From Sphaerochaetaceae bacterium (GTDB lineage Bacteria; Spirochaetota; Spirochaetia; Sphaerochaetales; Sphaerochaetaceae), in assembly GCA_028532765.1 (NCBI GenBank), contig JAQQAR010000072.1:1-64000 (forward strand): DNA of 64,000 nt. Reading direction: 5' to 3'. Of the stretch, positions 29,554 through 48,859 are shown piece after piece. Both the position numbers and the translations under genes were made by a program. The first letter of the stretch is position 1; every line of letters begins with the position of its first letter. The notes beneath the pieces are model-generated. The model was not told the origin of the DNA. It saw only the letters and a list, made by a program, of their open reading frames with translations, and ran no database searches.

Positions 29554-30438
29554 CTACCAATTCATCCGTAGCCCAGCTTCCAAGCTTATCAGCTGTCCAA
29601 TTGCTCCTTGCTCAAAGAAGCACGAGTAACCAGGTGAAACCAAGAACTGGACACCATCTGCAGAACCAAGGAGCAATGTAGCAGCTATGCGGGCTATAGG
29701 GTCCAGATATAAGGTATAACTCTGTGGTTCCCCAGATTGGGCACTCCAGGCAATGATATGTTGCATAATTCCAGCCTCAATGTCGATTGATACCTTGAGA
29801 GCAGGATTCGCAAGAAGGGGAAAGCCGAGGCCCAAGGTGGTTCCAATGATTTGGAAGGAAGATACCAAGCTGGTTGAGGATTTTGGCCTCTGGTAGAAGA
29901 GAGTGGTATAGGGAAGCAGGGAGTCCGAATTTCTGAAAGAACCAGAAGAGGAGAAATTAATCTGCAATTTTCCACCAAATCCAGTACCGTAGGATTCGCT
30001 GCAGAGTCCTAGAGGTAATAGGTACTGACCCCGTATGTCGATAGACGATGCTCCAAAGGTACTCTTCTCTTGCACGGGATCTTGTGCAGGAATCGGAGCA
30101 ACATTTGCTTTGGAGAACGTTTCCCACTTGTTATCTGTGGTATTGAACCTGAAGAGTATTTCTTGCCCCCAGGACGTTCCATTGCTGGATTGTTGGATTG
30201 TGAGCACTCCATTGCTTTTGTCAAAGTCCTCAAGGGTAATCAGGGGGGACTTGATATCGGAAGTGACCCAAGGGGAGTTGCCATCCTCACTTATCCTGTA
30301 GCGGAACTGGGAAATTTCAGGGGATGTTGGACAAAATTCAAGATACACCGGCTCTGCTACGAGTGTTTGCGCGAGGCAAAGGAGTATGAGCATGCAGAAC
30401 ACCATTGTCGATCTGCTGAATGGTATCGGTTGTGTCAT
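29554..30438 (-). CDS. Exported outer-membrane-like protein of unknown function
   Basis: About 294 residues from the ATG at 30438, which begins directly before a signal peptide (MVFCMLILLCLAQTLVAEP). Longer starts (30453, 30513) are possible, but the longest would reach the regulator site. The first 130 residues after the signal look like a beta-sandwich that repeats FRYRISEDG and ITIQQSSNGTSW-like strands. The C-terminal half has alternating Gly/hydrophobic strands and ends in ...LEAGLRMNW, with a terminal aromatic residue, as in outer-membrane beta-barrels. Co-transcribed with the small lipoprotein. Confidence 0.6.
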   Translation of the reverse strand: MTQPIPFSRSTMVFCMLILLCLAQTLVAEPVYLEFCPTSPEISQFRYRISEDGNSPWVTSDIKSPLITLEDFDKSNGVLTIQQSSNGTSWGQEILFRFNTTDNKWETFSKANVAPIPAQDPVQEKSTFGASSIDIRGQYLLPLGLCSESYGTGFGGKLQINFSSSGSFRNSDSLLPYTTLFYQRPKSSTSLVSSFQIIGTTLGLGFPLLANPALKVSIDIEAGIMQHIIAWSAQSGEPQSYTLYLDPIARIAATLLLGSADGVQFLVSPGYSCFFEQGAIGQLISLEAGLRMNW

Positions 30439-30518
30439 GAGGTTGTTGTTCATCACAGCACATACTAGTAGCAAGATTGTCTTGTAATCAAACGTAAAGA
30501 AGGGGTATGTCATGAAAA

Positions 30519-30534
30519 GTATCGCAAGCGATAC
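30519..30534. promoter_or_regulatory. Candidate LAL-regulator site, leftward operon
   Basis: GTATCGCAAGCGATAC is an inverted repeat with 7-bp arms about two bases, upstream of the outer-membrane-like gene and upstream of the regulator gene. A near-identical site (GTATCGGAAGCGATAC) lies at 33254 on the other side of the regulator. Two copies flanking one regulator suggest that it binds them. Confidence 0.65.
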
Positions 30535-33252: not shown

Positions 33253-33253
33253 A

Positions 33254-33269
33254 GTATCGGAAGCGATAC
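33254..33269. promoter_or_regulatory. Candidate LAL-regulator site, rightward operon
   Basis: GTATCGGAAGCGATAC, with 6-bp arms GTATCG/CGATAC, two bases after the regulator stop. A TACAAT at 33294-33299 would put transcription near 33306 and the site centre near -44, the position of a class II activator site. No good -35 box is present, which fits dependence on an activator. Confidence 0.65.
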
Positions 33270-33422
33270 TGTCTCCATCTTATATACACTCAGTACAATT
33301 TGATTGGTATGGCCATATGTCATGCCCAGAAGAATGTGAAGTATCCATGCTCTGAAAGAAGCGAGGCAAGGATAGTTCTCGTTTCAGTACTGTGTATGTT
33401 CGCAAAAAAGGAGATAGAAACA

Positions 33423-34901
33423 ATGAAAAGGCGATGGAACAATTACCTGATGCTTACCATGGCATTCCTTGCATTTTTACTTATTCCAGGGTGTAGCATG
33501 GAATCTGGAGTGCTTGAAGGGAGTCTTGTTGTCCAGGTGCAGGAGGCGATGACCAGGAATATCTTTACAAGCACCAATACCCTTACTGGCAATGATATGA
33601 ATATTGAGGGGTACAAGATTACGCTCATTTCTCCAGGAACTGATAGGGGCTTTGATGGAATGGTGTATCATCGCAAGGCAGATGGATCACCGATTGTCCT
33701 TGAGGCCTTGGAACCTGGGCTTTGGGGTATGGAAATTGCAGGCTACAATGGGTGGAATGATAACACCAACGAAGTTTCTGGTGAGCAAATTGCCTACTTG
33801 GATCAAGGTTCTACTACATTTTCTATCCAACGAGGTACAATTACCAGCAAACAGGCTGTCTTGGTTCCTATGCGGAGTGATACCGGAGCTTTAGATATTG
33901 TTATTGACTGGGCTGCACTGAATTCTGTGGATGAACAGAAACTCTACAATAATCCTGATGTAAGTGTAAAAGTTACCCAGATTAATGATAGATTCAGCAA
34001 CTATCCAACCACGAATTGGAACGACGCATCTAGCAAATCAGTTACTACCGAGACAAAAGCAGGTACTTTGGATGCTGGGGGAAATTCCTCCACCATCTCC
34101 TTTACCGAACTACCTGTCGGTTGGTATGAGGTAGTTGCCACCTTGACCTCCTCCAGTAGTCAGACCAGCAACGTTACTCAGCTGAAACGTATGGGGTATG
34201 TGCGAGTCATTGATGATGGTGCTAGTGCAGATGCGGTTAAAACAACTGGGACATTCACCATTACTGATGCAACCAGCTTCGCAACAGGAAGCCTCGATCT
34301 CTCGATCAGTGAGGATATGGATCCGCTTAGCGTAAGCTTCACTGAGATGGGAAGCCCAGAAGGTATCAACTATCCGAATACTGATGGATTTGGCTCAGAA
34401 GCATACGGTTCCTTTGAAGTCGAAGCCACTGGTGCGGATGAAGCAAACACCTTGAGCTATGCCTGGTATGTGAATGGAGAGTTGGTAAGTGACCAAACTG
34501 CTGCTTCCATGATCTATTCCTTCAGCGAGGCTGGCCAATACACGGTTACAGCGGTGGTGTATGAGAAAAATGGAGAGACTGCAGTCAACTGGGGTAGTGC
34601 ATCCCATGAGGTGGTGGTCGGCTCTGGTCTTGGAACGAAAGAGTTGCTGAATGTTACAGTTGCAGAGGATACAGAATCACCTGGAACTTATGTTGCTACC
34701 GTAACTTATGATAGTAATCCTGTTACAGGCCTTACCTATGTCTGGTATGGCGATGGCGGAGCGTTCCTTGAGAAAACCACGAGCAACACATGCACCGTAT
34801 CTATCTCACAAGGACTGTGTGTCTTTGCCTACGAGCTAGATAACACTACTGGAAACCTGACTCGTTGGGGGAGCGACACGTTTGAAATTGGATTTAATTA
34901 A
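33423..34901 (+). CDS. Surface lipoprotein of the paralogous array, member 1
   Basis: About 492 residues from the ATG at 33423; AGGAG lies upstream, and the longer frame to 33300 lacks a signal at its start. MAFLAFLLIPGC is a lipobox. The conserved N-terminal domain (about 25-175) has IEGYKITL, LEPGLWGMEIAGYNGW, and TITSKQAVLVPM. A PKD-like module follows with LSYAWYVNGELVSD and YSFSEAGQYTVTAVV, then a second with LTYVWYGDG. It heads the four-gene lipoprotein operon behind the LAL site. Ligand or role unknown; adhesion or glycan binding is possible. Confidence 0.78.
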   Translation: MKRRWNNYLMLTMAFLAFLLIPGCSMESGVLEGSLVVQVQEAMTRNIFTSTNTLTGNDMNIEGYKITLISPGTDRGFDGMVYHRKADGSPIVLEALEPGLWGMEIAGYNGWNDNTNEVSGEQIAYLDQGSTTFSIQRGTITSKQAVLVPMRSDTGALDIVIDWAALNSVDEQKLYNNPDVSVKVTQINDRFSNYPTTNWNDASSKSVTTETKAGTLDAGGNSSTISFTELPVGWYEVVATLTSSSSQTSNVTQLKRMGYVRVIDDGASADAVKTTGTFTITDATSFATGSLDLSISEDMDPLSVSFTEMGSPEGINYPNTDGFGSEAYGSFEVEATGADEANTLSYAWYVNGELVSDQTAASMIYSFSEAGQYTVTAVVYEKNGETAVNWGSASHEVVVGSGLGTKELLNVTVAEDTESPGTYVATVTYDSNPVTGLTYVWYGDGGAFLEKTTSNTCTVSISQGLCVFAYELDNTTGNLTRWGSDTFEIGFN

Positions 34902-34918
34902 AACAGGAATATAACGTG

Positions 34919-36118
34919 ATGAGAAACAGGGGCAACGAACAGAGAATATTCAACAGACTGTCAATCTTCTTGATTGGCTCTTTCGTTGTGCTTCTGCTCT
35001 TTGCCTCCTGCACTGCTTCGCCAGGAGGAGCGGTCCATATTTCCTTGGACCGCTCAATAGAGAAAACCAAGGAAACAGCTTTCATAAACCCTGACCTCGA
35101 CCTTGAGATTGCCAGCTATGATCTAACCCTCTATGGTCCTGAGCGTACAACTCTGGTTTTGGAGCGAACGCTCGATTCTGAGGTGCAACAGACTACCTTC
35201 GATACCTTGCCAACCGGAACTTGGAAGCTCCGGGTACAAGCAAAGAATACAGAGGGCAAGATGCTTCGCTCCCTTGGGTATGACTCAACCCTGCAGGATC
35301 GATTAATCTCCTTTGAGGTAAGACGGGGTGAGGTTTCAGTTGTTGATTGCACCTTGGTTCCCTACTGGGTAGGAGAGGGAGAGCTTTCCCTCTCCTTGGA
35401 CTGGTCCCTTGTTGATCTCGATCTCCTCTCTACCAAACCAGGTTTGGCAGTGTCCATAACCCCTTTGAGTGAGGTGTTATCCTTACAAGGGGTGCAAGTT
35501 GCTACCCCTCTGGGTGGGTACACCATCACCGGCCAAGAGACAGATGACGCTCTCTCTGTAGAGCTTTCACCGGAAACTGGAATGCTTCCAGAGGGAAGAG
35601 CTATTCAGCTTGCACTCAGTGCCCTCCCTGCTGGGTTGTATGAAATCTCGGTAGAACTCCGCACAGAAGCATCTTTTGTAAGGCTCTGGAAGGGAGTTCA
35701 GTTTGCGAGTGTTATGGATGATGGGACTACTTCCTTGGATATCTCCTTGCTTGATCCAGCCCTACAAACAGGAAGTATAACAATCCCGATAGAGGAACAT
35801 CTCGATCCTCTTGGGGTTTCTTTCACTTCCACTGCTCCCTCTACCTTGGACCCTGATCAGAAAGGGGAGTTCACCGTTGCTGTCACCGGTCAAGGAAGTG
35901 AATCTTCTCTGTCCTATACCTGGTATGTGAATGGAGAAAAGGTGGAAAGCGAAACTGAAAGCGATGAGGTTCCCCCAGAGATCCTTCTCTATAGTTTTAC
36001 AGAAGCTGGTCAGTACACCATCACCAGCAGCGTAACAGAAGAAGATAGCGGTGGGATTCTTACCAACTGGGGAATGGCACAGTGGGAGCTCACGGTGGAA
36101 CAAGGGGAGGTTGACTGA
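34919..36118 (+). CDS. Surface lipoprotein of the paralogous array, member 2
   Basis: About 400 residues; a GTG at 34916 is an equal choice of start. LLLFASC is the lipobox. The shared N-terminal domain is present (IASYDLTLYGPE, LPTGTWKLRVQAKN, RRGEVSVVDCTLVPY), then one PKD-like module: LSYTWYVNGEKVESE and YSFTEAGQYTITSSV, a close match to member 1 (YSFSEAGQYTVTAVV). It ends after this module with no DUF1566-type domain. Stop and next start overlap (TGATG), so translation is coupled. Confidence 0.75.
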   Translation: MRNRGNEQRIFNRLSIFLIGSFVVLLLFASCTASPGGAVHISLDRSIEKTKETAFINPDLDLEIASYDLTLYGPERTTLVLERTLDSEVQQTTFDTLPTGTWKLRVQAKNTEGKMLRSLGYDSTLQDRLISFEVRRGEVSVVDCTLVPYWVGEGELSLSLDWSLVDLDLLSTKPGLAVSITPLSEVLSLQGVQVATPLGGYTITGQETDDALSVELSPETGMLPEGRAIQLALSALPAGLYEISVELRTEASFVRLWKGVQFASVMDDGTTSLDISLLDPALQTGSITIPIEEHLDPLGVSFTSTAPSTLDPDQKGEFTVAVTGQGSESSLSYTWYVNGEKVESETESDEVPPEILLYSFTEAGQYTITSSVTEEDSGGILTNWGMAQWELTVEQGEVD

Positions 36119-37662
36119 TGAAACATATTCGCCCCTCTTTGATTCTGCTTTTTGTTCTCTCTTTCCTGTTTCTTTTTAGTGGTTGTGCTGAGTATAGCTC
36201 CACTGAATCTGGGGGACTCGCGATTCATTTTTCTGAGCCAAAGGCAAGGGAAATCTATCTTCCTTCCATCCCCTTGGATATAGCCTCCTACAAGATTACG
36301 TTGACCAGTGGGAGTGAGACGAAAACTTATGAGGTGGGAAAACAAGATTCCTTAGTTATCGAAGGACTGCTTCCTGGAATCTGGACCATCGAGGTTGTTG
36401 GCTACAATGGATGGGATGCAGGGGAATCCCAGGTGAGTGGTCAGCAGATAGCTACACTGGAAAAGAACCAAGAAGAAAGCAGATCGATACAGTGCAGTGT
36501 AAAACGTGGGGAAGTCACCTCTGCATCCCTTGCCATGGTTCCCATCACTGAAGGAACGGGGTCTCTCTCGCTTACCGTGAACTGGCCCCAACAAGACCAA
36601 GGTTCCTCTCTCATCCTGAATAATCCAAGATTGGAGATAGAGGTGAGGGGATACAATGAACATGCCAGTGTGTACGAGGACAACAGCAGTTATAGTGAAT
36701 TGATTGTAGTAAATGATGCTGCACATACCGCTACCAGAACCTTATCGAACTTGGTTCCTGGCTGGTATGAGATCCAGACTCGTCTTATTCCCCAGAATGC
36801 CACAGGGGATGCAACGCTCTACTATCGTAGTATCGACTTCGCCCAAGTAGTACCGAATGATGCAACCGGGACAATCGTTGTGTTGGACATCACCGATGAA
36901 ATGTTGGTAACCGGATCTATAGACTGGAGCTTTACCGAGGATATGGAGCAAGCTCTGGAGAATTTGGCTATCACCCAAGTCAGAGCTGATGAAGTAGCCT
37001 ATGCAGGTGTGCTACAACACTTCTCTTGTACCTATGAGAGCCCTACAGCCTCCTACCAGTGGTATGTTGATGGTGTTGCTATAAGCGGAGAAACAAATAA
37101 AACATTCTCCCATAGGTTCAGCGAGCATGGTACCCACAGGGTATTGGTAGCTGTGAAGGACGGAGGGGTCGTCAATGGAGAGGAAATCACCATGGCCATT
37201 AAACCAGCCTACACTATTGGCAATCATGGTCAAGCAGGGGGCTGGGTCTTCTTCTGTGATATAGAGGGAGAATATGAAGGATGGACCTATTTGGAAGGAG
37301 CACCGGAAGATCTGTCTACTCCAATGGCTTGGAGCAATATTACTAATGTACTTGTTGGAACTTCTAGGGATATAGGAAGCGGTGAGGCAAATACTGCTGC
37401 AATCATAGCCCAAGAAGGGCATACCAGCAGTGCAGCATATGCTTGTACGCAATATGGCTATCCAGATTTTACCGATTGGTTTTTACCCTCTATTGATGAG
37501 CTGGAAGCATTCGTTGCAAATAATGCAGATTTTGCTGAGTCGGTGGAATCACTTTGGCATTGGAGTTCGACTGAGAATACATATTTTTCGGTTTTTTTCC
37601 GATCATCCAAAACAACAAAAAAATATTTTGAATATGCAGTCCGCCCCATACGGTCATTCTAG
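36118..37662 (+). CDS. Surface lipoprotein of the paralogous array, member 3, with DUF1566-type C-terminus
   Basis: 514 residues. FLFLFSGC is the lipobox. Shared domain: IASYKITLTSG, LLPGIWTIEVVGYNGW, VKRGEVTSASLAMVP. A module with ASYQWYVDGVAISGE precedes a C-terminal DUF1566/Lcl_C-like domain (about 362-514): YTIGNHGQAGGWVFF, WTYLEGAPEDL, IGSGEANTAAII, DWFLPSIDELEAF, WSSTEN and AVRPIRSF. These C-terminal domains are found on surface proteins of many environmental bacteria, function unclear. Confidence 0.8.
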   Translation: MKHIRPSLILLFVLSFLFLFSGCAEYSSTESGGLAIHFSEPKAREIYLPSIPLDIASYKITLTSGSETKTYEVGKQDSLVIEGLLPGIWTIEVVGYNGWDAGESQVSGQQIATLEKNQEESRSIQCSVKRGEVTSASLAMVPITEGTGSLSLTVNWPQQDQGSSLILNNPRLEIEVRGYNEHASVYEDNSSYSELIVVNDAAHTATRTLSNLVPGWYEIQTRLIPQNATGDATLYYRSIDFAQVVPNDATGTIVVLDITDEMLVTGSIDWSFTEDMEQALENLAITQVRADEVAYAGVLQHFSCTYESPTASYQWYVDGVAISGETNKTFSHRFSEHGTHRVLVAVKDGGVVNGEEITMAIKPAYTIGNHGQAGGWVFFCDIEGEYEGWTYLEGAPEDLSTPMAWSNITNVLVGTSRDIGSGEANTAAIIAQEGHTSSAAYACTQYGYPDFTDWFLPSIDELEAFVANNADFAESVESLWHWSSTENTYFSVFFRSSKTTKKYFEYAVRPIRSF

Positions 37663-37675
37663 GGAGTTGAGATAG

Positions 37676-39553
37676 ATGCACAAGATGATAGAGAGACAAC
37701 AGAAAATACTAACACTGCTCATGCTTGCAATGCTGTTCCTGCTTGTTTTCTCTTCCTGTGATTTGAGCCTTGCTCCTGAGGGTGTGCTGAGTGTAACCAT
37801 TGTTGAACCAAGTACCGAAAAGTCCCTGAACATTGAGCCTGATGGTGTTGATCTTGTGGTTCAGACATACACAATTACTCTGACCAAGGCTGATGGGACA
37901 ATAGTCACTACCACCAAGAACAAGGGAAGCGATACCTCCTTTGTCATTGAAGGGTTAACGGTTGGAAGTTGGAGTATGCGCGTTGCAGGAAAAAATAGCG
38001 CAGGAAGCATCGTAGCTGAACTGGAGGGAGGTCCTCTTTCTGTTGCTGTGCAACGAGGGAAGGTGAGTGAGGTGTCCGCCCGTATTGTTCCCTGCTCTGG
38101 TAAAGGTACCTTGTCCATCTCCGTGGCCATCGAGGGTACCTATGATCAGATCAATGATCCCTATGTCAGGGTAAAGGTATTTGATGAGAACGGTGATAGC
38201 CAATCCATGACTACATACTCTGTTCCTTTCAATGGGATGGTTGTGCCCGATATCTCGTTGCCTGCTGGGTGGTACCAGATACAAATAATTCTGATGGATT
38301 ATACGACAATTATGGATACACAAGCCTTCTATCCCCACATTGTTGAAGGTAAGGTGACCTCGCATTCCATACGTTTTGATGTCGGCTCCTACGATATCGG
38401 GGATATCGGTCCGGCTGGTGGATTGGTGTTTTATGCGTATGATGAAGAAACAGAGCCAGATGCAGTGGGGACAAATGGAGCCTCTATACATGGACCGATC
38501 AGGTCAACCATAGATGGCTACTCGGGCATGAAGTTCTTTGACTCAGGATCGTACTTGGAGCTGAGTCAGGATCTTGCAATCATTCCCAATGTATTTGAGG
38601 CAAAAATCTATGTGTATAGCGATCATAAAGCCGCAGACAGGGTAGGGATTATTGCGGGGAATTATGATGGAACCACAGGTGCTGTGAATACCCATACCAT
38701 GGGATGGGAAGTATATACCAATGGGAATCCCCGAATATGGTGGGACGGAGGAACCCGTGACATTGTCTACAGCTATGACGTTCGTAAGGATCAGTGGATT
38801 CATTTAAAGTGGGTACGTGATGAGGTGCACCAGACGATTCGTCTGTTCGTTGACGATGGGGACGCAGACGGAACGGGTTCTGATGTATTTGAGGTAACCA
38901 ATTTAGTACGAAACAGGAATGACGGTGTTCCTGGTGCGGGAAATGATGTGTATCTCAATGCAACGGGGAGAAAGCTTCGCATCGGGAGCGACTATCCCAA
39001 TATTCGTCAAGCCTTCAAGGGATATATAGCAGATGTGAAGATCTATGATGATCAAGAGCAATTGAAGCTCTACTATCCGATGAAACGATACCTGGAAGCT
39101 GCTCCTGACGACCTACGGGTACTGGGCGATGGGACTGCCACGTGTGATAGCTCCCTTCTTGGCTATGAGACAGCAGCCAGCCAATTCCCCTTTGGCAGCT
39201 ATGGAGCTACAGAGACCTACCAAAACCTAGGCTCTGGGAGGCTCTCCACGGAGAATTTGGTTGCTGCTGGTGGAGCCACTGATGAGTATGCTCCTCGTCT
39301 TGCATCTGTCCTTGTGCATAATGGGTATGATGACTGGTTCCTTCCCAGTAAGGCGGAGATGGAAGAGATGGTTACGGTTTTACACAACCAATACAATCCT
39401 CTCTCTACTTTCCAGGAAGATTCCTTATATTGGACCTCTACACAATTCAATGATACCGCAGCGTACATTCAAAAATTCTCTCCCACATTCGTTTATTCTA
39501 CATTTGTGAGCAGTACTACCCCGTGGTGTGTCCGGCCAGCCCGTTTCTTGTAG
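37676..39553 (+). CDS. Surface lipoprotein of the paralogous array, member 4, DUF1566 domain split by a LamG-like domain
   Basis: 625 residues. LLVFSSC is the lipobox. The shared N-terminal domain is followed at about residue 238 by YDIGDIGPAGGLVFYAY, the opening of a DUF1566-type domain. A LamG/concanavalin-like domain then intervenes (about 268-461; KFFDSGSYLELS, GWEVYTNGNPRIWW, WIHLKWVRDE, FKGYIADVKIYDD). The DUF1566 sequence resumes at RYLEAAPDDL and finishes with DDWFLPSKAEMEEM, YWTSTQFN and CVRPARFL. The PKD-like module of members 1-3 is missing. The LamG insert suggests carbohydrate binding. Confidence 0.8.
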   Translation: MHKMIERQQKILTLLMLAMLFLLVFSSCDLSLAPEGVLSVTIVEPSTEKSLNIEPDGVDLVVQTYTITLTKADGTIVTTTKNKGSDTSFVIEGLTVGSWSMRVAGKNSAGSIVAELEGGPLSVAVQRGKVSEVSARIVPCSGKGTLSISVAIEGTYDQINDPYVRVKVFDENGDSQSMTTYSVPFNGMVVPDISLPAGWYQIQIILMDYTTIMDTQAFYPHIVEGKVTSHSIRFDVGSYDIGDIGPAGGLVFYAYDEETEPDAVGTNGASIHGPIRSTIDGYSGMKFFDSGSYLELSQDLAIIPNVFEAKIYVYSDHKAADRVGIIAGNYDGTTGAVNTHTMGWEVYTNGNPRIWWDGGTRDIVYSYDVRKDQWIHLKWVRDEVHQTIRLFVDDGDADGTGSDVFEVTNLVRNRNDGVPGAGNDVYLNATGRKLRIGSDYPNIRQAFKGYIADVKIYDDQEQLKLYYPMKRYLEAAPDDLRVLGDGTATCDSSLLGYETAASQFPFGSYGATETYQNLGSGRLSTENLVAAGGATDEYAPRLASVLVHNGYDDWFLPSKAEMEEMVTVLHNQYNPLSTFQEDSLYWTSTQFNDTAAYIQKFSPTFVYSTFVSSTTPWCVRPARFL

Positions 39554-40027
39554 AAGCCGGAAGATTTTGGAAGCGGAGTTTAAATGATTTGAAAGTAGGT
39601 CGACATGTCGACTAACATTCAGATGTACTCCATTTTCTCATTATTCCGATTGCTCCTATGCTCATTATTGCTAAGGTGAAAGCGCTCCATTTCTGTTATG
39701 GATGGAGAGTTCGTTTTGCAGAATTCTTGCCCTCCTTTGATACTCTTTTTGTAGGTTTAGAAGACAAATCTATGCAGGAAGAATCCCAGAAAAGTCTACT
39801 TAGAGCTATATATGAGGTAAAAATCGACAGAAGTACAAAACTGATGGATTCCCAGTATTTATATAGTAATGTTGATGATTTATTCAAAAATACACAGAGT
39901 AATATGCTTTTTATCACAATAAAACAACTCATTTTTTTTATGGAAACGTCGTTTTTAAGCCGGTGTGGTTGAATAATCGGGCCATACATGCAATGATTAG
40001 GTATAACCTTATCCATAGGGAGAAAAT
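39554..40027. other. Gap between the lipoprotein operon and pckG
   Basis: 474 bases without a convincing gene. A 104-codon frame at 39658-39972 has no ribosome site or family-like sequence. A perfect 14-bp palindrome, GTCGACATGTCGAC, sits at 39599-39612 and might bind a regulator. AGGGAG precedes the pckG start. I see no clear terminator after the lipoprotein operon, and no confident pckG promoter. Confidence 0.5.
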
Positions 40028-41923
40028 ATGAGTAAATTTGAAACATTGCTAAAAGAAAAGATGAGTGAAGAGAGTTTCCAGAAGCTTGCAGCCTTGAAAA
40101 ATGACAAGGTGATGGACTTCGTTGGAACCTTCGCTGAGCACTGTGATCCCAAATCCATCTATGTATGTGATGACAGTGAAAAAGACACCCAGTATGTAAG
40201 AGAACAGGCTCTGGCTAAAGGCGAGGAGCACCCTCTTGCAAACTCCAAGCAGACCATCCACTGGGACGGTTATGGCGACCAGGCTCGCGACAAGAAGAAC
40301 ACCCGTTTCATGGTCTACAAAGAGAACATGGATAAGATGGCTTCCTTGAACTCCGTCGAGTATGAAGAAGGCCTCAGTGAGATCATGGGCATTGCCAAGG
40401 GCATCATGAAGGGCAAGGACGCAGTTGTGTTGTTCTACTCTGAAGGTCCTACCCAGAGCCCGTTCACCATTCCTTGTGTGCAGTTCACCGATAGCTGGTA
40501 CGTTGCTCACTCCGAGAATATCCTGTACCGCACTGCATACAGCCACTTCCTCAACATGAAGGACGATGAGAAGGATGATTTCTTCCGTTTCATCCACTCT
40601 GCTGGTGAGCTTGATGAGAATGGTTGTACTGTAAACCTGCAGAACCGCAGAATCTACATGGACACCCAGAACAACATCGTATACTCCATGAACGACCAGT
40701 ATGCTGGTAACTCCGTTGGTTTGAAGAAGCACTCCATGCGTCTTGCAATCAACAAGAGCGGCCAGGAAGGTTGGCTCTGTGAGCACATGTTTGTCATGGC
40801 TGCAGTTGACAAGAAGAAAGATCGCAAGACCTACTTCTGTGGTGCATACCCCTCCGCTTGTGGTAAGACCTCCACTGCCATGATCCCCGGCGAGCAGATC
40901 GTTGGTGATGACATTGCATATTTCAGAAACATCAACGGCGAGTTCCGCGCTGTTAACGTCGAGTTTGGTATGTTCGGTATCATCAAAGACGTCAATGAGC
41001 AGGATGACCCCGTTATCTTCAAGAACCTGATGATCGACCAGGAAGTTATCTTCTCCAACGTTCTTCGTGGTAAGGACAACAAGCCTTACTGGCTTGGTAT
41101 GGGTGTTGATGCTCCCGAGGAAGGCCGCAACCACTTTGGTGAATGGAAGAAGGGCGTGAAGGATGCAAATGGCAACGAAGTTGGCGTTGCTCATGGTAAC
41201 GCACGTTACACCATGCGTCTGGACTACCTGGACAACATCGACAAGGCTGGTTTTGAAGCCAAGGACGGTGTCAAGGTTGAAGGTGTTCTCTACGGTGGAC
41301 GAGACAGTGACATCACCGTTCCTGTTGAAGAGTCCCCGAACTGGAAGGATGGTATCTTGCTGAAGGCAGCTACCCTCGAGAGTGAGACCACCAGTGCAAC
41401 CCTCGGTCAGGAAGGTGTTCGCACCCCCAGCCCGATGGCAAACATGGACTTTGTCTCCTATCCTCTCGGCACCTACACCATGAACAATATCAAGTTCGGT
41501 GAGAGTGTGAAGGATGTTCCCAAGGTATTCAGCAACAACTACTTCATGCGTGATGAAAACGGCAAGTTCATGACCAGTAAGCTCGCCAAGAAGGTTTGGC
41601 TGCACTGGGCAGAAGGTCGTGTACATGGTGAGTACGAAGCATTGGATACTCCTACCGGTAAGATCCCTCTCTATGAGGACCTGAAGGCACTCTTCAAGGA
41701 ACACCTTGATGAGGATTTCTCCAAGGAGAAGTATGACTACCTCTTTACTTTCCGCTGCACCAAGTGGGTTGATAAGCTCGAGAGGACCAAGGCTTACTAC
41801 AAGAAGATGGATCCGAATACTCCCCAGGAGATCTTCGATTACTGGGATGCAGCAATCGCTAAGATCAACAAGGCCAAGGAGCAGTATGGTGATCTGATTC
41901 TTCCCGGCGCTTTCAAGGGTTAA
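40028..41923 (+). CDS. pckG: Phosphoenolpyruvate carboxykinase (GTP)
   Basis: 631 residues. YPSACGKTSTAM (about residues 274-285) is the kinase-1a/P-loop of GTP-type PEP carboxykinase with its reactive Cys, and GDDIAYFRN the metal-binding kinase-2 motif. GGRDSDITVPV and the C-terminal FRCTKWVDKLER match the family. It interconverts oxaloacetate and PEP with GTP; in fermenters with sugar-acid diets it may run in the carboxylating direction. Codon use is strongly biased, so it is probably highly expressed, and a 551-codon mirror frame arises on the other strand. Confidence 0.96.
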   Translation: MSKFETLLKEKMSEESFQKLAALKNDKVMDFVGTFAEHCDPKSIYVCDDSEKDTQYVREQALAKGEEHPLANSKQTIHWDGYGDQARDKKNTRFMVYKENMDKMASLNSVEYEEGLSEIMGIAKGIMKGKDAVVLFYSEGPTQSPFTIPCVQFTDSWYVAHSENILYRTAYSHFLNMKDDEKDDFFRFIHSAGELDENGCTVNLQNRRIYMDTQNNIVYSMNDQYAGNSVGLKKHSMRLAINKSGQEGWLCEHMFVMAAVDKKKDRKTYFCGAYPSACGKTSTAMIPGEQIVGDDIAYFRNINGEFRAVNVEFGMFGIIKDVNEQDDPVIFKNLMIDQEVIFSNVLRGKDNKPYWLGMGVDAPEEGRNHFGEWKKGVKDANGNEVGVAHGNARYTMRLDYLDNIDKAGFEAKDGVKVEGVLYGGRDSDITVPVEESPNWKDGILLKAATLESETTSATLGQEGVRTPSPMANMDFVSYPLGTYTMNNIKFGESVKDVPKVFSNNYFMRDENGKFMTSKLAKKVWLHWAEGRVHGEYEALDTPTGKIPLYEDLKALFKEHLDEDFSKEKYDYLFTFRCTKWVDKLERTKAYYKKMDPNTPQEIFDYWDAAIAKINKAKEQYGDLILPGAFKG

Positions 41924-41961
41924 TCACTCTGTAGTTCGGGTTGAAAATACCTAAATCATAT

Positions 41962-41996
41962 ATGGCACGTATGGAATTCCATGCGTGCCATATTTC
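41962..41996. terminator. Bidirectional intrinsic terminator
   Basis: ATGGCACG at 41962-41969 pairs with CGTGCCAT at 41984-41991, and the interior ATGGAATTCCAT is itself a palindrome, so the stem is almost continuous. It is followed by ATTTCT and lies between the convergent pckG and the secreted-protein gene. Confidence 0.75.
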
Positions 41997-41998
41997 TG

Positions 41999-43180
41999 CT
42001 ATTCAGTCATGATTGATTCAATGATGGCCGATGCCAACGCTTCTCCTCGATCGAACCACTCAACTTCTACCTGCAACATGACATTCTCCTTGGTGATCTT
42101 AACGATCATGGCACCATGGATAGCTTCCTCCCCATAGGGATAGTCATAGGTATAGGTGATTACATAGAAGCGGTTCTCGTAGTCAATCTCATTCCTATGG
42201 ACTTCGCGGTTTTTGAGACTGGTATTATTCTCAAGCTGTTGTTCTATGTCCCTCTTTGATTGGAGCAAATAGTTCTGTCTTGAGATAGTTGAAGCGAGAA
42301 GAGCCTTAAGCCCTTCTATGGCTGATACCTTGCAGTAATACCCTTTCGATTGTAGCGTTTCCGTGGAAGTCTTGATGGTATGAACCTTCTTGCCTCCCTG
42401 CCCTGGAAGATACACAGAGCTGCTTCTCCAGTCAGGCTCATCATCCCAGAGGAAAGTTTCTGATGATCCGAAGAGAGGGTAGGAGTACAAGGCAGTTGTG
42501 TCCTCTTCTCTTGCTGGATCGTCTTGTACCTCCTTAGGTTTCAGAGAATCCAGAAAAGAAATCCCTGAAGCAAGGAATTGCTCGAAGACTGGTTTCCAGA
42601 TAGTCTGTTCATCTTTCGTGTATCTTGTGGTTATGGAGATAAGGGTATCTCCGGCATGGATGATGTACACCTCTGCATGGATTCCTGTGAGTGTTTCATA
42701 GCCATACTTCCATGCGAACATCCCATCGATTTCAGTAGTGGATAGATCATACCACGTCCTCACTACCTCAGACCTTCTGGTTGCTTCCTCAAATACCTTT
42801 GACGCCTCCAGGAGCTCTTCCTCACTGAAGGCAAGCGTCTGGGTGCGGAATGTTGCATTGTCACGTTCCTGGCTTAGGCGTTCAGCTTTCAAGGTGATGG
42901 TATTATTAGCAGAATTGGCCGGTTTTAAACGTTTGGTGTTCATCCCCTTGGGTTGCAGCGTATAGGTATAGGTCCCTCCCGGCTGTGCCTGGAGAGAGAA
43001 GGCTGTTTTCAAGTCTGCTACCTGTACCTCCATAGAATCGGGGACAGTGAAGGTAAAGTGGCGGGTCGTGATGGATTGTCCTGCAAAGAGTACAGAAGTG
43101 GCAATGAGGAGTAGAATGATGAGCAGTGTGAGGTGTTTGTGGTGTTTCATACGCTTGAATCCTGTTCTCCTTTTTTTCAT
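41999..43180 (-). CDS. Secreted protein of unknown function
   Basis: 393 residues. A basic N-terminus and a strong signal peptide (LTLLIILLLIATSVLFA, cleavage near AGQ) with no lipobox. The mature part has beta-rich segments (RHFTFTVPDSMEV, GTYTYTLQPKG, WYDLSTTEIDGMFAWKYGYE, FYVITYTYDYPYGEEAI) and a helical middle. I do not recognise the family. The start could be the ATG at 43150 in place of 43180. No obvious partner gene; it diverges from the NlpC/P60 gene. Confidence 0.65.
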   Translation of the reverse strand: MKKRRTGFKRMKHHKHLTLLIILLLIATSVLFAGQSITTRHFTFTVPDSMEVQVADLKTAFSLQAQPGGTYTYTLQPKGMNTKRLKPANSANNTITLKAERLSQERDNATFRTQTLAFSEEELLEASKVFEEATRRSEVVRTWYDLSTTEIDGMFAWKYGYETLTGIHAEVYIIHAGDTLISITTRYTKDEQTIWKPVFEQFLASGISFLDSLKPKEVQDDPAREEDTTALYSYPLFGSSETFLWDDEPDWRSSSVYLPGQGGKKVHTIKTSTETLQSKGYYCKVSAIEGLKALLASTISRQNYLLQSKRDIEQQLENNTSLKNREVHRNEIDYENRFYVITYTYDYPYGEEAIHGAMIVKITKENVMLQVEVEWFDRGEALASAIIESIMTE

Positions 43181-43271
43181 AAGGTGAACCGCCTCTCGGC
43201 AAGCAGTACTGAGATGTTTTTCGGTTATTCTCAGTATAGCACAAGGTTAGCGACAGTGGTTGTGATAGAAT

Positions 43272-43778
43272 ATGGCTATGAAGAGGATTGCTTTATCCTT
43301 GCTGATAACCAGTCTGCTATGCAGTTCATGTGATGGTGAACATACGGTCCCAGTAAGCGAGGAGATGAGAGAAAAGGCGTATGAGATATCATTCCAATAT
43401 ATTGGGATGCCGTATGTATGGGGTGGAGCAAGCCACTACAGCGATACTGGCGGTGGGGTGGACTGTTCTGGGTTGGTAATTGAGATATATGACGAGGTAG
43501 CAGAGAGCTTCTCAGTGCGGCTACTATTTAACGATACCACTGCCAGTGCGATGGCAAATCAGTATACTCTCCCTCTGCTTGAACCTGAGAGGGGTGATCT
43601 TATCTTCATGGGTGAGGATGGGGTAGTGAGCCATGTGGCGCTCTGTCATGCTGTGACTGACGATGATCTGGTGTTCATTGATGCCTATTCTGTAACAGGT
43701 GAGGTGGGAATTCGATCATACTCCTTTGATGACCCGAAGATTATCTCTTTTGGGAGAATGTTGGTCATTAGTGATTAG
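43272..43778 (+). CDS. NlpC/P60-family lipoprotein peptidase
   Basis: 168 residues. SLLITSLLCSSC is a lipobox, so the protein is anchored outside the inner membrane. The NlpC/P60 domain follows: GMPYVWGGAS, GVDCSGLVIEIYD (nucleophile Cys) and VVSHVALCHAV (His). LEPERGDLIFMG is also typical. These enzymes cut peptidoglycan stem peptides or related amides. The ATG at 43278 is an alternative start. Convergent with the TPR gene, six bases apart. Confidence 0.88.
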   Translation: MAMKRIALSLLITSLLCSSCDGEHTVPVSEEMREKAYEISFQYIGMPYVWGGASHYSDTGGGVDCSGLVIEIYDEVAESFSVRLLFNDTTASAMANQYTLPLLEPERGDLIFMGEDGVVSHVALCHAVTDDDLVFIDAYSVTGEVGIRSYSFDDPKIISFGRMLVISD

Positions 43779-43784
43779 CGATGA

Positions 43785-44585
43785 TCAATCCTCAGTCCAT
43801 GGTTCCTTGTTGTGAATCTCATCAATAATGAAACGCACTCCTTGGTTATCAGGGGGATTGCGACGCAATACCTTGCATGCAATTTTTTCTGCTTCTGCAA
43901 ACCGACCCAATCTCCAGAGCAATATACAGTAGCCTTGTAATGCCCTTAGGTAGGGGCGGTTCTCCAGACATGACCAGAGCGTTATACCGTCAAAATCGGG
44001 GGGCAGCTTCTTCTCTGCAATAGCAATGGCAGCACGATAACAGTTCTCTGCATTTCTATAGTAAAACTTGCTGGAAACATAGGGATTTGCGATGTGTGCC
44101 AAGGCATCGATACATTGGGGGAACTCCTCCCAGAGTTTGGTTAGGATGTCATACCGTCTCGATGGATCCATGCTGTCTGCAGCTTCAAAGACAGGGTCGC
44201 TGTCCCGACCATAAAAACCGTATCCTGTGTAGTCATGAAACTCGATGGAAGGTCTCTTTCCGCCTTTCAGACATGCACCGAGAAGGCCCTTAAGTTCGTT
44301 CCTCTCATAGTACTCAGTGGTGGAGTGGCTCTCGCCCTCATCATAGTCATGACCTTCAATTGCAAGGGAATCGAGGGAGAATGCATTGCTCTGGACTTCT
44401 CCACTGATGTAGGTAGTCTGGTTGAACTGCCACCGTTTTGATTCAAGGAATACCACTGTGTCAAGTATTGCTACCTTATAAGCTCTTGTCTTGACGGAAA
44501 CAATTTCCTTGGTATCAAGGTCTCTTGCTCGAAACCCTAGTGAAAGGATTTTAAGTACGAGTAAATTACGGGTGGTTGTGTCCAT
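43785..44585 (-). CDS. TPR-like protein
   Basis: 266 residues. The N-terminal half is of unknown type with charged loops (HDYDEGESHSTTEYYERNEL). The C-terminal half is helical: WEEFPQCIDALAHIANPY, NCYRAAIAIAEKKLPPDFDG, RPYLRALQGYCILLWRLGRFAEAEKIACKVLRRNPPDNQG, the last being a clear tetratricopeptide-type repeat with the DNQGVR ending common in one group of these proteins. Cytosolic. Function not known. Confidence 0.7.
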   Translation of the reverse strand: MDTTTRNLLVLKILSLGFRARDLDTKEIVSVKTRAYKVAILDTVVFLESKRWQFNQTTYISGEVQSNAFSLDSLAIEGHDYDEGESHSTTEYYERNELKGLLGACLKGGKRPSIEFHDYTGYGFYGRDSDPVFEAADSMDPSRRYDILTKLWEEFPQCIDALAHIANPYVSSKFYYRNAENCYRAAIAIAEKKLPPDFDGITLWSCLENRPYLRALQGYCILLWRLGRFAEAEKIACKVLRRNPPDNQGVRFIIDEIHNKEPWTED

Positions 44586-44665
44586 ACAGTTATCCTTCTC
44601 CTGGTGATTGCCATAAAAGGTTGGTTTTCAATGACAACCAACTTTTAAAATGGTAGACTTTTCCC

Positions 44666-45418
44666 ATGCATAACACAACCTCAGATACACCAATATATAG
44701 AAATTGGGTTTCCCTTAAACTGGTCATAGTTCCTGGGATTTTGGCATTGGGGACTGCCGTCCTTACTGCCTTCTATTCCTGGATCATGATATTCCCCGTA
44801 ATTTTTCTCTTGATGATGCTCTATTTTGTCTATGCGCGGCATCTGTTCTCCCCTGAGGGAAAGGATATACAGGCAGAACTCCATTCCATGCTCATCGAAG
44901 AGATAGCGTGGAATGGCAAGGGCAAGGCCCTTGATATCGGCTGCGGTAATGGAGCCCTGGCTATCCGTTTAGCGAAGAAGTACCCCGAGGCACATGTTAC
45001 CGGAATCGAATACAGAAGATTTTCTAAGGCCATCTGCAAACAAAACGCTGAGATTGAAGGGGTCTCTGACAGAGTCTCTTTCAAGGAAGGTAGCATTGTA
45101 GAGCTGCCCTTTGAAGATGATGAGTTCGATTTGGTGGTGAGCAACCTTACGTTTCATGAAGTGATTGAACTAAGGGATAGAAGAGAACTGATGGAGGAAG
45201 CCTTCCGTGTTCTCAGGCATGGGGGAGTCTTTGTATTCCAAGACCTATTCCTGACCAAGAAGATGTTTGGCAATCTTGATCCCATGCTGAAAAAGCTCTC
45301 CAGTTGGGGTGCGAAATCCGTGGAGTTTATCAATCTTGGTGAGTCTGAACGAATTCCGAGCATCCTTAGGACTCCTTTCATGGTAGGGACGATTGGGATC
45401 ATCAAGGGGAAAGTGTAA
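44666..45418 (+). CDS. Membrane-anchored SAM-dependent methyltransferase
   Basis: 250 residues. Two hydrophobic helices at about 15-60 (LVIVPGILALGTAVLTAFY, IMIFPVIFLLMMLYFVYA) precede a class I methyltransferase domain: ALDIGCGNGALAIRLA (SAM motif I, about 91-106), VTGIEYRRFS, FEDDEFDLVVSNLTFHEV (motif IV region) and RVLRHGGVFVFQD. Substrate cannot be inferred; its membrane anchor suggests a lipid or quinone-like acceptor. Alone in its orientation between TPR and lipoprotein genes. Confidence 0.88.
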   Translation: MHNTTSDTPIYRNWVSLKLVIVPGILALGTAVLTAFYSWIMIFPVIFLLMMLYFVYARHLFSPEGKDIQAELHSMLIEEIAWNGKGKALDIGCGNGALAIRLAKKYPEAHVTGIEYRRFSKAICKQNAEIEGVSDRVSFKEGSIVELPFEDDEFDLVVSNLTFHEVIELRDRRELMEEAFRVLRHGGVFVFQDLFLTKKMFGNLDPMLKKLSSWGAKSVEFINLGESERIPSILRTPFMVGTIGIIKGKV

Positions 45419-45538
45419 GCTAAAAACCTCATATTATTATCATACTAGCGGCATATGTGTAGAATTTTGTTGACAACCACCTAGGTCATAGGTCACTTTT
45501 AACACATTCGTATTAATACATTTGTAAGGATGTGTGTA

Positions 45539-46201
45539 ATGAAAAAAACATTGATGTTAGTTGTCTCTCTGGTTCTGCTTCTTGGTGTGTTCACTGGTTG
45601 TGATATGGCTATGGATACCTCTGCTCTCTCGAGTCGTGGGGTAAAAATGGATAGTCCCCTCGATTCTGAGCGTGCTCTGAAGAATAACAAGCCGGTTTCC
45701 TTTACTGCCTCTGTCCAGCTCTTCCAGGATTTCACCTCAGTAGTGACGCTGGATATGGGTAACAGTAATCACCACAAGACTATTGAAGAGACACTCTACA
45801 GCTTCATGGATCTCGGGCCCTATGGCCAGTATGGTGGCCTCGTTTCTTCTGATTGGGACCTCTTGGACGGCAAGCTGGTTGTCATGAGTAATGTAACCAA
45901 CTATAACCTCGATGAGGCTACTACTGCGATTGGGGGATCGAACCACAGTGTGATCAGCATCGTTGATCCTGTAACAGGGGAAGTTGTGGCTACCCTTGAT
46001 GCCAACGGAACAGTAAAAGGATCTCTCTTTGGTGCTGAGATTGCCATGAACTGGGTCATGAAAGAGAACAGTGCAGGAGTGAATGCAAGAGGAAAGGTTG
46101 ATGGCATTTTCACCTGGTTAGTGATTGATCCCAATACAGGGACTCCCAATCCAAACTATATCCCTAATGGTAGTTTTGTCCTGACAGGAACCTATAAGTA
46201 G
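45539..46201 (+). CDS. Lipoprotein of unknown function
   Basis: About 220 residues from the ATG at 45539, which has AAGGA eight bases upstream; the earlier ATG at 45530 overlaps that box. VLLLGVFTGC is the lipobox. The mature part is beta-rich (VSFTASVQLFQDFTSVVTLDMG, GEVVATLDANGTVKGSLFGAEIAMNWVM, NGSFVLTGTYK). Not a clear paralogue of the larger array, but of the same cell-surface class. A TTGACA at 45470 and a direct repeat of AGGTCA (45483-45495) lie upstream. Confidence 0.7.
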   Translation: MKKTLMLVVSLVLLLGVFTGCDMAMDTSALSSRGVKMDSPLDSERALKNNKPVSFTASVQLFQDFTSVVTLDMGNSNHHKTIEETLYSFMDLGPYGQYGGLVSSDWDLLDGKLVVMSNVTNYNLDEATTAIGGSNHSVISIVDPVTGEVVATLDANGTVKGSLFGAEIAMNWVMKENSAGVNARGKVDGIFTWLVIDPNTGTPNPNYIPNGSFVLTGTYK

Positions 46202-46240
46202 ATACGGTTCTCTATAACCGATTAGTTTAAAACTCTTCAT

Positions 46241-46269
46241 ACCTGCATCTGATTTCTTCAGCTGCAGGT
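46241..46269 (+). terminator. Hairpin after the 45539 lipoprotein
   Basis: ACCTGCA at 46241-46247 pairs with TGCAGGT at 46263-46269, extended by CTGA/TCAG inside. GTTTGTTGTG follows, a poor T run, so termination may be partial. Confidence 0.55.
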
Positions 46270-46349
46270 GTTTGTTGTGTCTGATGCATAATATTTGTTC
46301 TTCTATTGCTTTCTTGTTTGGATGAGAGCCATTCCTACAGAAGCGTAAT

Positions 46350-46428
46350 TATCGGATAGTATCGGATACAAGCCTTGAATTATCGGATAATTTCTATTGT
46401 ATCGGATAATAAGCGATACTATCCGATA
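46350..46428. repeat. Helically phased TATCGGATA repeats
   Basis: TATCGGATA occurs at 46350, 46360, 46381 and 46400, with the inverse TATCCGATA at 46420. Spacings of 10, 21, 19 and 20 bases are near whole turns of B-DNA. Two related units (TATTCGATA 56156, TATCCGATA 56166) precede the homologous pseudogene at 56.2 kb. Probably an operator array of the lost regulator. Confidence 0.7.
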
Positions 46429-46440
46429 CTGGGGACTACG

Positions 46441-46542
46441 ATGCATTATGACGTAATCGAGGCGAAGATTCTGGAGTTCAAGGTACGATCATTACGCCTA
46501 CTTCCAGCGTTTGATTTACTGAGAATCTGTATTGTATAAAAA
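46441..46542 (+). pseudogene. Relic of an AlbA-type regulator gene N-terminus
   Basis: The frame begins MHYDVIEAKILEFK and soon leaves family-like sequence, ending at a stop near 46540. The first ~45 bases and the upstream ACTATCCGATA segment match the start of the decayed regulator at 56.2 kb (YDAIKSKNLEFKER). AlbA_2-domain regulators begin in this way. The following gap (46543-46906) has one 33-codon frame at 46650-46751 (MEFIVADRIL...) that I do not recognise, and otherwise nothing clear. Confidence 0.55.
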
Positions 46543-46906
46543 TTACTGGGTCTCTACATTGACAAATATTGAAATGTGTATAGATACTTAAATATAGCTT
46601 AAGACATACGTTCTGAAGCATTGTTTGCTGTTTTTTAACTGTGAGCATTATGGAGTTCATCGTTGCTGACCGTATCTTGGTACGGAGTGATTTTTCAGTT
46701 GATGAGGCATTCAATGAAGTGGACTACAAGTGTAGCAAAGCTAGTGCCTAGAAGTACTAAAAAACTATATTGTAATATATTAAATATCGATATACCGCCA
46801 TAAAAGAAAAGAAATCTTCTACATTTTCTGATTTGTCTGGATTCCTTGCATATCGCTAAGGAAAGGTTTATGTGTCTTTATACAAGTGAAATTCATAGGA
46901 GTTTGT

Positions 46907-48859
46907 ATGAATACTATTGGTAAATGGATAGGAATTCTTGGACTGTTATTGATACTTATAGTCGCAGGTTGTGACATAGGCATGTCGGGTTTAGATACGA
47001 AAAATGTCGGTACCCTATTATTGCAGGTAAAACAAGGTGGGGATTTCGCAGAGAGGACTCTGGTTCCTGATATTTCCATGGATATTGTGGAATGGAGCAT
47101 TACCGGCTCTGGTCCTGATCAGAGAACATATGGGCCGCAAACCTTTGCACTCGATGCCTCTATTACCATCCCTGACCTCTACAAGGGTTCCTGGGATATT
47201 ACCGTAGAGGGATTGAATGCATCAGAACAAGTGATTGGACGAGGGTCTAAGAGCTTGGTGATTACAGCAGCCCAGACTACCAATGGGACAATCACTGTTG
47301 TACCTCTGAGCGGTAATGGAACACTGGATTTGGATGTCACTTGGCCTACAAGCCTCTTTGACAATGACATGTTTGAGGTAATACTGACTGATAAGGAAGG
47401 AGTAGCGCATGTACTGTCTCCAACCTTGGATTATACTGCAGGGACTGGTTCCTATAGTGGAACATGGGCAGCTGGGTATTATGATCTGAATGTGCAGTTG
47501 CTTGATGGGGCCACTTCGGTTTGGGGTACCTATGAATCTGTTCGAATTGTAGAAGGACAGTCTACAGAGGGAACCCTCATCTTGACTGAGGAGATGTTGA
47601 ATATCAGCAATAAAGGTGCATTGAACCTTGATATTGACGATGACATGCAGAACCCCTTTCTTGTAAGTCTCTCTGGGGTTTCGGATGAACTGACTGCCGG
47701 TACATCCATGCAAGTGAGTAGCTCGGTAGATCCATCCAGTGAGACATACAGTTATGTATGGTTTCTCAATGGTGTCATGATACCGGATGAAACCCTCTCA
47801 ACAATAACCTTTGGCGATATGCTAGCTATCGGTCACTATAATTTGGCATTGCGAGTGAGTGATGGTACGGTCATATCTTCTACAGTACACTATTTTAGTG
47901 TAGTACCTCCCGTGAATGTAGTGATTGATCCTGATTACAACTTCACCCCGGATGAAACTGATAGTACACCGTTTACTGTGGTTTCTATTGTTCCTTCCGA
48001 TCAAGCTCAAAATGTACCGGTTGGTACTTCTATCACTGTGTACTTTGATGATTTGATCAACCCAATAAGTCTGAATGATGTCTCCATGTCGGTAACTGTT
48101 GCTGACCAGGTTGTAGCCGGTACCTTTGCGCTGGAGCGTTCAACCAATGATCTATTTGCGGTACTTCACTTCACCCCGTCACAACCTTTTGCGGATAATG
48201 TGGATGTCACAGTGACGCTGAGTAGTGTGAATGGATTGCTGGACAAGGGTGGTAATACCCTGGCGAGTGAGCTTGTCTTCACATTCCATACCGCTGCAGC
48301 CTATCTGGGTGATGCTACAAACTTGGGCTTTGAAAGCGGATTGACTGGGTGGAATATCACTGGTAATGGAGGAATTGTTGATCTTCCCTTTGCTTCAGAG
48401 TTGTCTTTGGAGGGAGTCAAGGCCGCCATGATCACAACCGATTCAGCGGTTGACTACGGTCTATCTGGGACTCCATTGAATGAGGCAACCTCTATGCTAA
48501 GCAGTGGAAGTCTTGATGTTCCGGGCGGTGCGACGCTGTGCTCCTTTGATTACTACTTCCTCTCTGCTGAGTTCACAGAGTTTATTGGGTCGCAATTTGA
48601 TGATACGTTGACTATGACCTTCTCTGGGCCAAACGGTACCATCATAGAGACGATTGAGACGGTCAATTCGTATCAAGCAAGTGAATGCACAGTATTGGTG
48701 AGTAATCTTTATGACGACCTCTACCATACTGGAGCAAAGACAAAGCAGGTAGATATTTCTGGTTTGGGTAGTCCCATCACCATTAGCTTTGCTGTTTCGG
48801 ATGTCGGTGATCAGGCATATATCTCTGCTCTCTTGGTGGACAATTTCCGATTTGAGTAG
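46907..48859 (+). CDS. Surface lipoprotein with Big_5-like domain, remote member of the array
   Basis: About 650 residues from the ATG at 46907 with AGGAG five bases upstream. GLLLILIVAGC is the lipobox. The shared N-terminal domain is present (IVEWSITGSGPD, LYKGSWDITVEGLNAS, GTLDLDVTW), then a PKD-like module (YSYVWFLNGVMIPDE), then a SbsA/Big_5-type Ig domain (about 350-465; IVPSDQAQNVPVGTSITVYFDD, LHFTPSQPFADN), then a C-terminal beta-sandwich beginning LGFESGLTGWNITGNGG, as in 'choice-of-anchor' domains. Monocistronic, with a strong terminator after it. Confidence 0.78.
   Translation: MNTIGKWIGILGLLLILIVAGCDIGMSGLDTKNVGTLLLQVKQGGDFAERTLVPDISMDIVEWSITGSGPDQRTYGPQTFALDASITIPDLYKGSWDITVEGLNASEQVIGRGSKSLVITAAQTTNGTITVVPLSGNGTLDLDVTWPTSLFDNDMFEVILTDKEGVAHVLSPTLDYTAGTGSYSGTWAAGYYDLNVQLLDGATSVWGTYESVRIVEGQSTEGTLILTEEMLNISNKGALNLDIDDDMQNPFLVSLSGVSDELTAGTSMQVSSSVDPSSETYSYVWFLNGVMIPDETLSTITFGDMLAIGHYNLALRVSDGTVISSTVHYFSVVPPVNVVIDPDYNFTPDETDSTPFTVVSIVPSDQAQNVPVGTSITVYFDDLINPISLNDVSMSVTVADQVVAGTFALERSTNDLFAVLHFTPSQPFADNVDVTVTLSSVNGLLDKGGNTLASELVFTFHTAAAYLGDATNLGFESGLTGWNITGNGGIVDLPFASELSLEGVKAAMITTDSAVDYGLSGTPLNEATSMLSSGSLDVPGGATLCSFDYYFLSAEFTEFIGSQFDDTLTMTFSGPNGTIIETIETVNSYQASECTVLVSNLYDDLYHTGAKTKQVDISGLGSPITISFAVSDVGDQAYISALLVDNFRFE

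Follow-up and report, generated by a model that had tools for sequence, protein, structure and literature searches.

Tandem-domain lipoproteins and a probable regulated display operon in Sphaerochaetaceae

The C-terminal domain (DUF1566) of the Legionella protein Lcl is a C-type-lectin-like trimer that binds sulfated glycosaminoglycans (PMC11162425). DUF1566 also ranks with the domains that diversity-generating retroelements target most often (PMC4159848). Fimbrial components of the Bacteroidia are lipoproteins with two tandem transthyretin-like domains, and they are encoded in multi-lipoprotein operons beside a regulator (PMC2954217). Five lipoproteins that recall these systems are encoded in a stretch of 64,000 nucleotides from Sphaerochaetaceae bacterium (assembly GCA_028532765.1, contig JAQQAR010000072.1, positions 1-64,000), referred to here as the window. 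They are named after their first positions: P1 (33423), P2 (34919), P3 (36118), P4 (37676), and P5 (46907). The reading favored here, with a probability of roughly 0.6, is that they belong to a regulated system in which a lipid-anchored stalk displays glycan- or protein-binding heads, a scheme made up of the stalk, an operon of P1-P4, and a regulator with its operator. Most of the surface lipoproteins known from the phylum are those of a few pathogens.

A sequence-only reading of the window had proposed a five-member family with a shared N-terminal domain in which it recognized no named family. All five open reading frames are present, each with a lipobox signal peptide, and their N-terminal regions are indeed homologous. 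In an all-against-all BLASTP search, the E values range from 1e-36 to 3e-4, and every member has at least one partner at 4e-5 or below. Shuffle tests of all ten pairs give Z scores of 4.9-48 for the whole shared region and 3.4-27 for its first domain alone, with P1-P5 as the weakest pair. The shared part is larger than the single domain of about 150 residues first described, since it consists of two tandem domains, D1 and D2, of about 120 residues each, which together span about 245 residues. D1 and D2 are homologous to each other (profile comparison E 1e-5, probability 82%), which points to an old tandem duplication as the probable origin of this base. Pfam and NCBIfam models cover none of it, a PDB sequence and profile search returned no relatives of D1-D2 apart from weak Ig/FN3 matches, and a literature search found no publication describing the N-terminal family.

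The motifs picked out earlier hold across the family. Counted over 61 nonredundant members, the glycine of G-x-W is present in 61 and the tryptophan in 59, while the aromatic position of Y-x-I is Y, W, or F in 97%. Further conserved positions are N, G-x-G-x-L, W, G-x-Y, and R-I-V. Between strands 1 and 2 of D1 (e.g., window positions 36187-36300) lies [RK]-[TSN]-[IL]-x-P, which is conserved across the phylum, has R or K at its basic position in 79% of members, and could be a structural or a processing site. A lipobox precedes the module in all 54 complete nonredundant members (three of them judged by eye, the pattern having missed them). D1 begins 0-19 residues after the lipobox, and two copies of the module in one protein were never seen.

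An AlphaFold2 model of the D1, D2, and third domains of P3 reached a mean predicted local distance difference test (pLDDT) score of 75, with D1 mostly at about 88-95. The D1 model resembles prealbumin-like domains (DUF4876, the middle domain of rhamnogalacturonan lyase, and DUF3823) with Z scores of 7.7-9.3, against a typical background best of 7-8, and a root-mean-square deviation (rmsd) of 2.5-3.2 over 83-88 residues. The D1 of relatives also weakly matches Pfam CarboxypepD_reg (E 1e-4). Judged from the model, D1 likely adopts a prealbumin/transthyretin-like beta-sandwich.

Behind D2, the proteins diverge, and at the scale of the phylum the C-terminal modules are swapped, as had been suggested. 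The PKD-like end, though, is no alternative to the others; it is a third, PKD/Ig-like domain common to four of the five proteins, all but P4. P1 (33423-34901, 492 amino acids; all five genes are on the plus strand) consists of D1 (33495-33872), D2 (33873-34322), the PKD-like domain (34323-34622), and, at its end, a second copy of it (34623-34898). P2 (34919-36118, 399 amino acids) has D1 at 35012-35374, D2 at 35375-35764, and the PKD-like domain at 35765-36115, with no further head. P3 (36118-37662, 514 amino acids), the start of which overlaps the P2 stop, continues from D1 (36187-36549), D2 (36550-36921), and the PKD-like domain (36922-37215) into an Lcl_C/DUF1566 head (37216-37659). In P4 (37676-39553, 625 amino acids), D1 (37760-38092) and D2 (38093-38389) lead directly into the head. 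P5 (46907-48859, 650 amino acids) has D1 at 46973-47308, D2 at 47309-47632, and the PKD-like domain at 47633-47941. These are followed by Big_5 (47960-48292; 49.2 bits) and choice-of-anchor-L (about 48530-48838; 31.1 bits) domains, both above their curated cutoffs of 23.6 and 27 bits.

The heads of P3 and P4 contain the complete DUF1566 motif order GG-x-V-F-Y, YLE-x-AP, DWFLPS, W-S/T-S, and VRPxR, and a full-length relative (L062) that is 30% identical to P3 reaches 42.8 bits for Lcl_C (PF07603; cutoff 34.9). The earlier reading listed DUF1566-like and LamG-like ends as separate alternatives. Both exist, but P4 has the two together, with one nested in the other. Its Laminin_G_3 match scores 28.6 bits, above the Pfam gathering score of 27.6, and the distance from GG-x-V-F-Y to YLEAAP is 218 residues in P4 and 209-219 in its orthologs versus 10-14 in 11 other proteins. 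The LamG domain is therefore inserted into the DUF1566 domain: a first DUF1566 strand at about 38390-38440, the LamG insert at about 38441-39080, and the remainder of DUF1566 at 39089-39550. Such a nested binding domain is unusual. A model of full-length P4, built from only four usable sequences, reached a pLDDT of 37. Three further DUF1566 proteins in the window genome (G000:C80:513-4624 and C37:16351-16965) lack D1-D2, and one of these, of 785 amino acids, has a different, repeated N-terminal region.

P1-P4 (33423-39553) are separated by gaps of 17, -1, and 13 bases and are predicted to form a four-gene operon, a single transcription unit of old subunits. Upstream lie the regulator gene (30685-33252, plus strand) and, divergent from it, two genes on the minus strand. 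One of these (29554-30513) codes for a protein that, from its sequence, is probably an outer-membrane beta-barrel, although it has no Pfam match. The other (29092-29544) codes for a small lipoprotein of 150 amino acids. Its sole domain is similar to the PKD-like domain of P1-P5, with E 3e-7 when eight sequences were searched. This small lipoprotein shares 97% identity with one relative but only about 50% with two others, far below its neighbors, a pattern that suggests allelic replacement of a single-domain lipoprotein.

The whole divergent cassette, 29092 and 29554 on one side and the regulator with P1-P4 on the other, is kept in four more species of the same genus. In genome G002, the divergent protein, the regulator, and P1-P4 are found together in a different neighborhood, at 26-46% identity, and in G036, from another genus, the end of the regulator, P1, P3, and P4 are present. 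One-to-one orthologs of P1-P4 are kept even in species in which the copies are only 33-45% identical. A quick tree has P1-P4 as separate clades, each with its G002 ortholog and, for P1, P3, and P4, that of G036. P5 falls elsewhere, in a lineage of its own, which speaks against a local expansion of the family that includes P5. P5 was also considered as a fifth unit of the operon and rejected on account of this placement and the lack of a dyad nearby. In one Sphaerochaeta lineage (G079, L058/L092), P1, P3, and P4 carry several in-frame stops or frame breaks, and P2, the regulator, and the PEP carboxykinase gene are intact; unless this is a local assembly error, the operon seems to be dispensable there and in decay. 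A strain-variable insertion point lies between P4 and the PEP carboxykinase gene, where L052 (12575-13441) and L054 (12923-14215) have an open reading frame for an AAA-type ATPase that is not found in the window.

The regulator combines an AAA/STAND ATPase, a MalT-like tetratricopeptide repeat (TPR) region, and a C-terminal GerE helix-turn-helix (HTH). In a survey of 100 genomes of the taxonomic family, it occurs in exactly the 8 that have the operon, one of these 8 being the window's own species again, and is always adjacent to it. Shared ancestry explains part of this co-occurrence, and G002 and G036 strengthen the link. The intergenic regions on both sides of the regulator contain the dyad AGTATCG-N(2-4)-CGATAC. 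One copy, AGTATCGC-AA-GCGATAC (30518-30534), lies between the divergent protein and the regulator, and the other, AGTATCG-GAAG-CGATACT (33253-33270), lies directly behind the stop codon of the regulator, some 150 bp ahead of P1. The dyad is exact in both places, and a search of the window that allowed up to two mismatches found it nowhere else, with 0.16 matches expected. The same dyad follows the regulator stop in G002, and the corresponding place in G036 has ACTATCG-GATA-CGATAGT, with both arms changed symmetrically. Taken at the level of sequence, AGTATCG-N4-CGATACT is a likely operator of the regulator. The repeats at 46350-46430 upstream of P5 were also tried as related dyad sites and rejected, as this TTATCGGATA/GTATCGGATAC array precedes the remnant of another gene. 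The stretch 46350-46483 holds the array and then the first codons of an AlbA_2/Schlafen-like gene (our own naming); the gene is intact in L055 (6131-7507) and L057 (5639-6985), and the window copy is a remnant with its control region.

The D1-D2 module is far more widespread than the operon and extends into many further spirochete families. Two extra paralogs (G000:C40:27446 and C24:25942) bring the window genome to seven members, so the five described before are real but are not the genome's total. At least one member is present in 93 of the 100 genomes of the family survey, which usually have one to three, with a maximum of ten. A phylum-wide draw of 247 genomes gave matches in 38 at E 1e-5, and those outside the family often reached E 1e-30 to 1e-55. 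Heads within the family include peptidase M30, InlB repeats, and a lactonase-like propeller, and those outside it include FGE-sulfatase, fn3, clostripain peptidase, transglutaminase, LamG, and InlB repeats. The near-universal single-copy members have a beta-propeller head or none. The near-universal propeller member adjoins apparent hydrogenase-type genes in two genera (G000:C40:27425-29476, L065; G032:C4, L071), a case of deep synteny. Weak, mostly partial matches in 20 of 198 Bacteroidota genomes were set aside as generic fold similarity. A search for related loci with close orthologs returned two spirochete loci only, and none was found among viral contigs.

Together, the lipid anchor, the stalk, the lectin-type heads, the private sensor-regulator, and the probable outer-membrane partner suggest a regulated display of binding proteins at the surface. 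In the proposed mechanism, the stalk would consist of the lipobox cysteine, a short linker, D1, D2, and usually the PKD/Ig-like domain, and it would carry exchangeable C-terminal heads away from the membrane. P1 and P2 would be stalk-only proteins, P3 would bear the DUF1566 (C-type-lectin-like) head, and P4 would bear a DUF1566 head with the LamG lectin-type insert. The MalT/LuxR-type ATPase regulator probably senses a ligand, binds GTATCG-N4-CGATAC on both of its flanks, and would switch on P1-P4, the divergent outer-membrane protein, and the small lipoprotein jointly. The system would most likely serve in attachment to a surface or a neighbor through glycan- or protein-binding heads. Several points weigh against this picture. 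The Lcl_C scores of P3 and P4 (25.0 and 25.7 bits) stay below the cutoff, and the assignment of their heads therefore rests on the motif order and on relatives above it. The generic role of DUF1566 is unclear, according to the authors who studied Lcl (PMC11162425). The operon also lacks any transporter or enzyme from which a substrate could be guessed, and the two-domain model matches Bacteroidia fimbrial and adhesin lipoproteins only at Z scores near background (rmsd 8-10 Å).

Two alternatives concern the operator and the surface location. Instead of operators, the dyads could be RNA hairpins, either attenuators or processing sites: each can fold into a stem of 7 bp, a minus-strand T-run comes after the one at 30519, and the two-arm change in G036 fits a hairpin equally well. 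The same dyad, however, flanks the regulator at either end, one copy preceding the regulator's own start, and the plus-strand copy at 33253 is not followed by a T-run. A dyad of this size also suits a dimeric GerE-type HTH protein, and hairpins are a doubtful explanation, if one to be taken seriously. The lipoproteins may likewise face the periplasm, with a scaffold, stress, or cell-envelope function in place of a receptor role. The propeller or absent heads of the near-universal members would suit such a role, but the family also includes LamG, DUF1566, InlB-repeat, and peptidase heads, which are typical of extracellular proteins, and a periplasmic orientation is unlikely.

The remaining alternatives concern what kind of surface protein is displayed. 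The sequence-only reading had likened the five to diversifying receptors or adhesins, and hypervariable antigens produced by a retroelement, phase variation, or rapid positive selection would agree with the frequent use of DUF1566 by retroelements. The C-terminal ends of P1 (37-80%) and P3 (63-84%) are also the least conserved parts, and the synonymous divergence (dS) from three related species jumps abruptly between domains. These jumps, though, also occur between neighboring genes, flanking genes included, and therefore point to recombination of the region, which seems to be combined with purifying selection. In the same comparison, the ratio of nonsynonymous to synonymous divergence (dN/dS) is 0.13-0.29 for P1-P5, slightly higher than the 0.06-0.21 of most neighbors. 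Signal peptides excepted, all domains that gave a usable estimate stay below 0.5. Whole-gene values above 0.5 were found only at the tiny divergence from G089, for 29092 (1.27) and 29554 (0.53), and positive selection was rejected on this comparison. No reverse transcriptase (PF00078) match was found in the window genome, which is 98% complete, and the controls were positive. Given this and the stable one-to-one orthology under purifying selection, P1-P4 are better seen as old subunits than as hypervariable antigens; that possibility is highly improbable, and its retroelement version appears largely refuted. A type V-pilus-like system, in which pilin-like P1-P4 would polymerize by strand exchange between tandem transthyretin-like domains and P3 and P4 would be lectin-bearing tip subunits, is very unlikely as well. 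It would account for the Bacteroidia-like pattern of a lipoprotein operon next to a regulator (PMC2954217), for the matches of the two-domain model to BT2657, FimA, Mfa2, Mfa3, and DUF1812 proteins (Z 7.3-9.4 over 174-203 residues), and for the conserved basic residue of [RK]-[TSN]-[IL]-x-P, which sits where first-strand removal could occur. Yet those matches have the high rmsd given above, neither Pfam FimA/Mfa2 (PF06321, PF08842) nor a fimbrillin in the PDB profile search appears up to an E value of 1, D2 is followed by a PKD-like domain and large heads, and outside this locus the members are mostly encoded singly and bear enzyme or propeller heads. Type V pili have moreover been described as restricted to the Bacteroidia (PMC11316588), and kinship of D1-D2 to fimbrillins is unproven. 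That spirochetes own such an appendage or display machine, with [RK]-T-[IL]-x-P processing, DUF1566/LamG lectin tips, and a MalT-type sensor switch, is a long shot.

The proposed display on a lipid-anchored stalk has partial counterparts in several systems. Now that D1-D2 can be described by a profile, its domain borders, a signature, and a catalog of heads, many "hypothetical lipoproteins" can be annotated, and the operon, together with the private regulator and the predicted operator, is a directly testable candidate for a regulated display system. Like P3 and P4, Legionella Lcl is an elongated, cell-associated protein with a C-terminal DUF1566 head (PMC11162425). Lcl, however, is secreted and built from an amphipathic helix and a collagen stalk, whereas P3 and P4 have a lipid anchor and a probable transthyretin-like stalk (with a PKD-like domain too in P3), and P4 has LamG inside its head. 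The type V components of the Bacteroidia (FimA, Mfa2, and BT1062) are tandem transthyretin-like lipoproteins from operons beside a regulator (PMC2954217), features that P1-P4 would share. P1-P4 differ from them in having no PF06321 or PF08842 match and in their heads and extra PKD-like domain. Another likeness to P1-P5 is found in the surface glycan-binding proteins of Bacteroidetes, which have a lipid anchor, N-terminal beta-sandwich spacers, and a C-terminal binding module. Those proteins belong to polysaccharide utilization loci, whereas no SusC/SusD pair or glycoside hydrolase was recognized in the cassette, and nine scanned cassette and neighboring proteins gave no match to Sus/TonB families. 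Finally, regulator 30685 has the ATPase, TPR, and HTH parts of MalT and the LAL-type LuxR regulators, but it scores 125.2 bits against the MalT equivalog (PRK04841), far below the NCBIfam cutoff of 537, and it stands beside a lipoprotein operon rather than with maltose genes.

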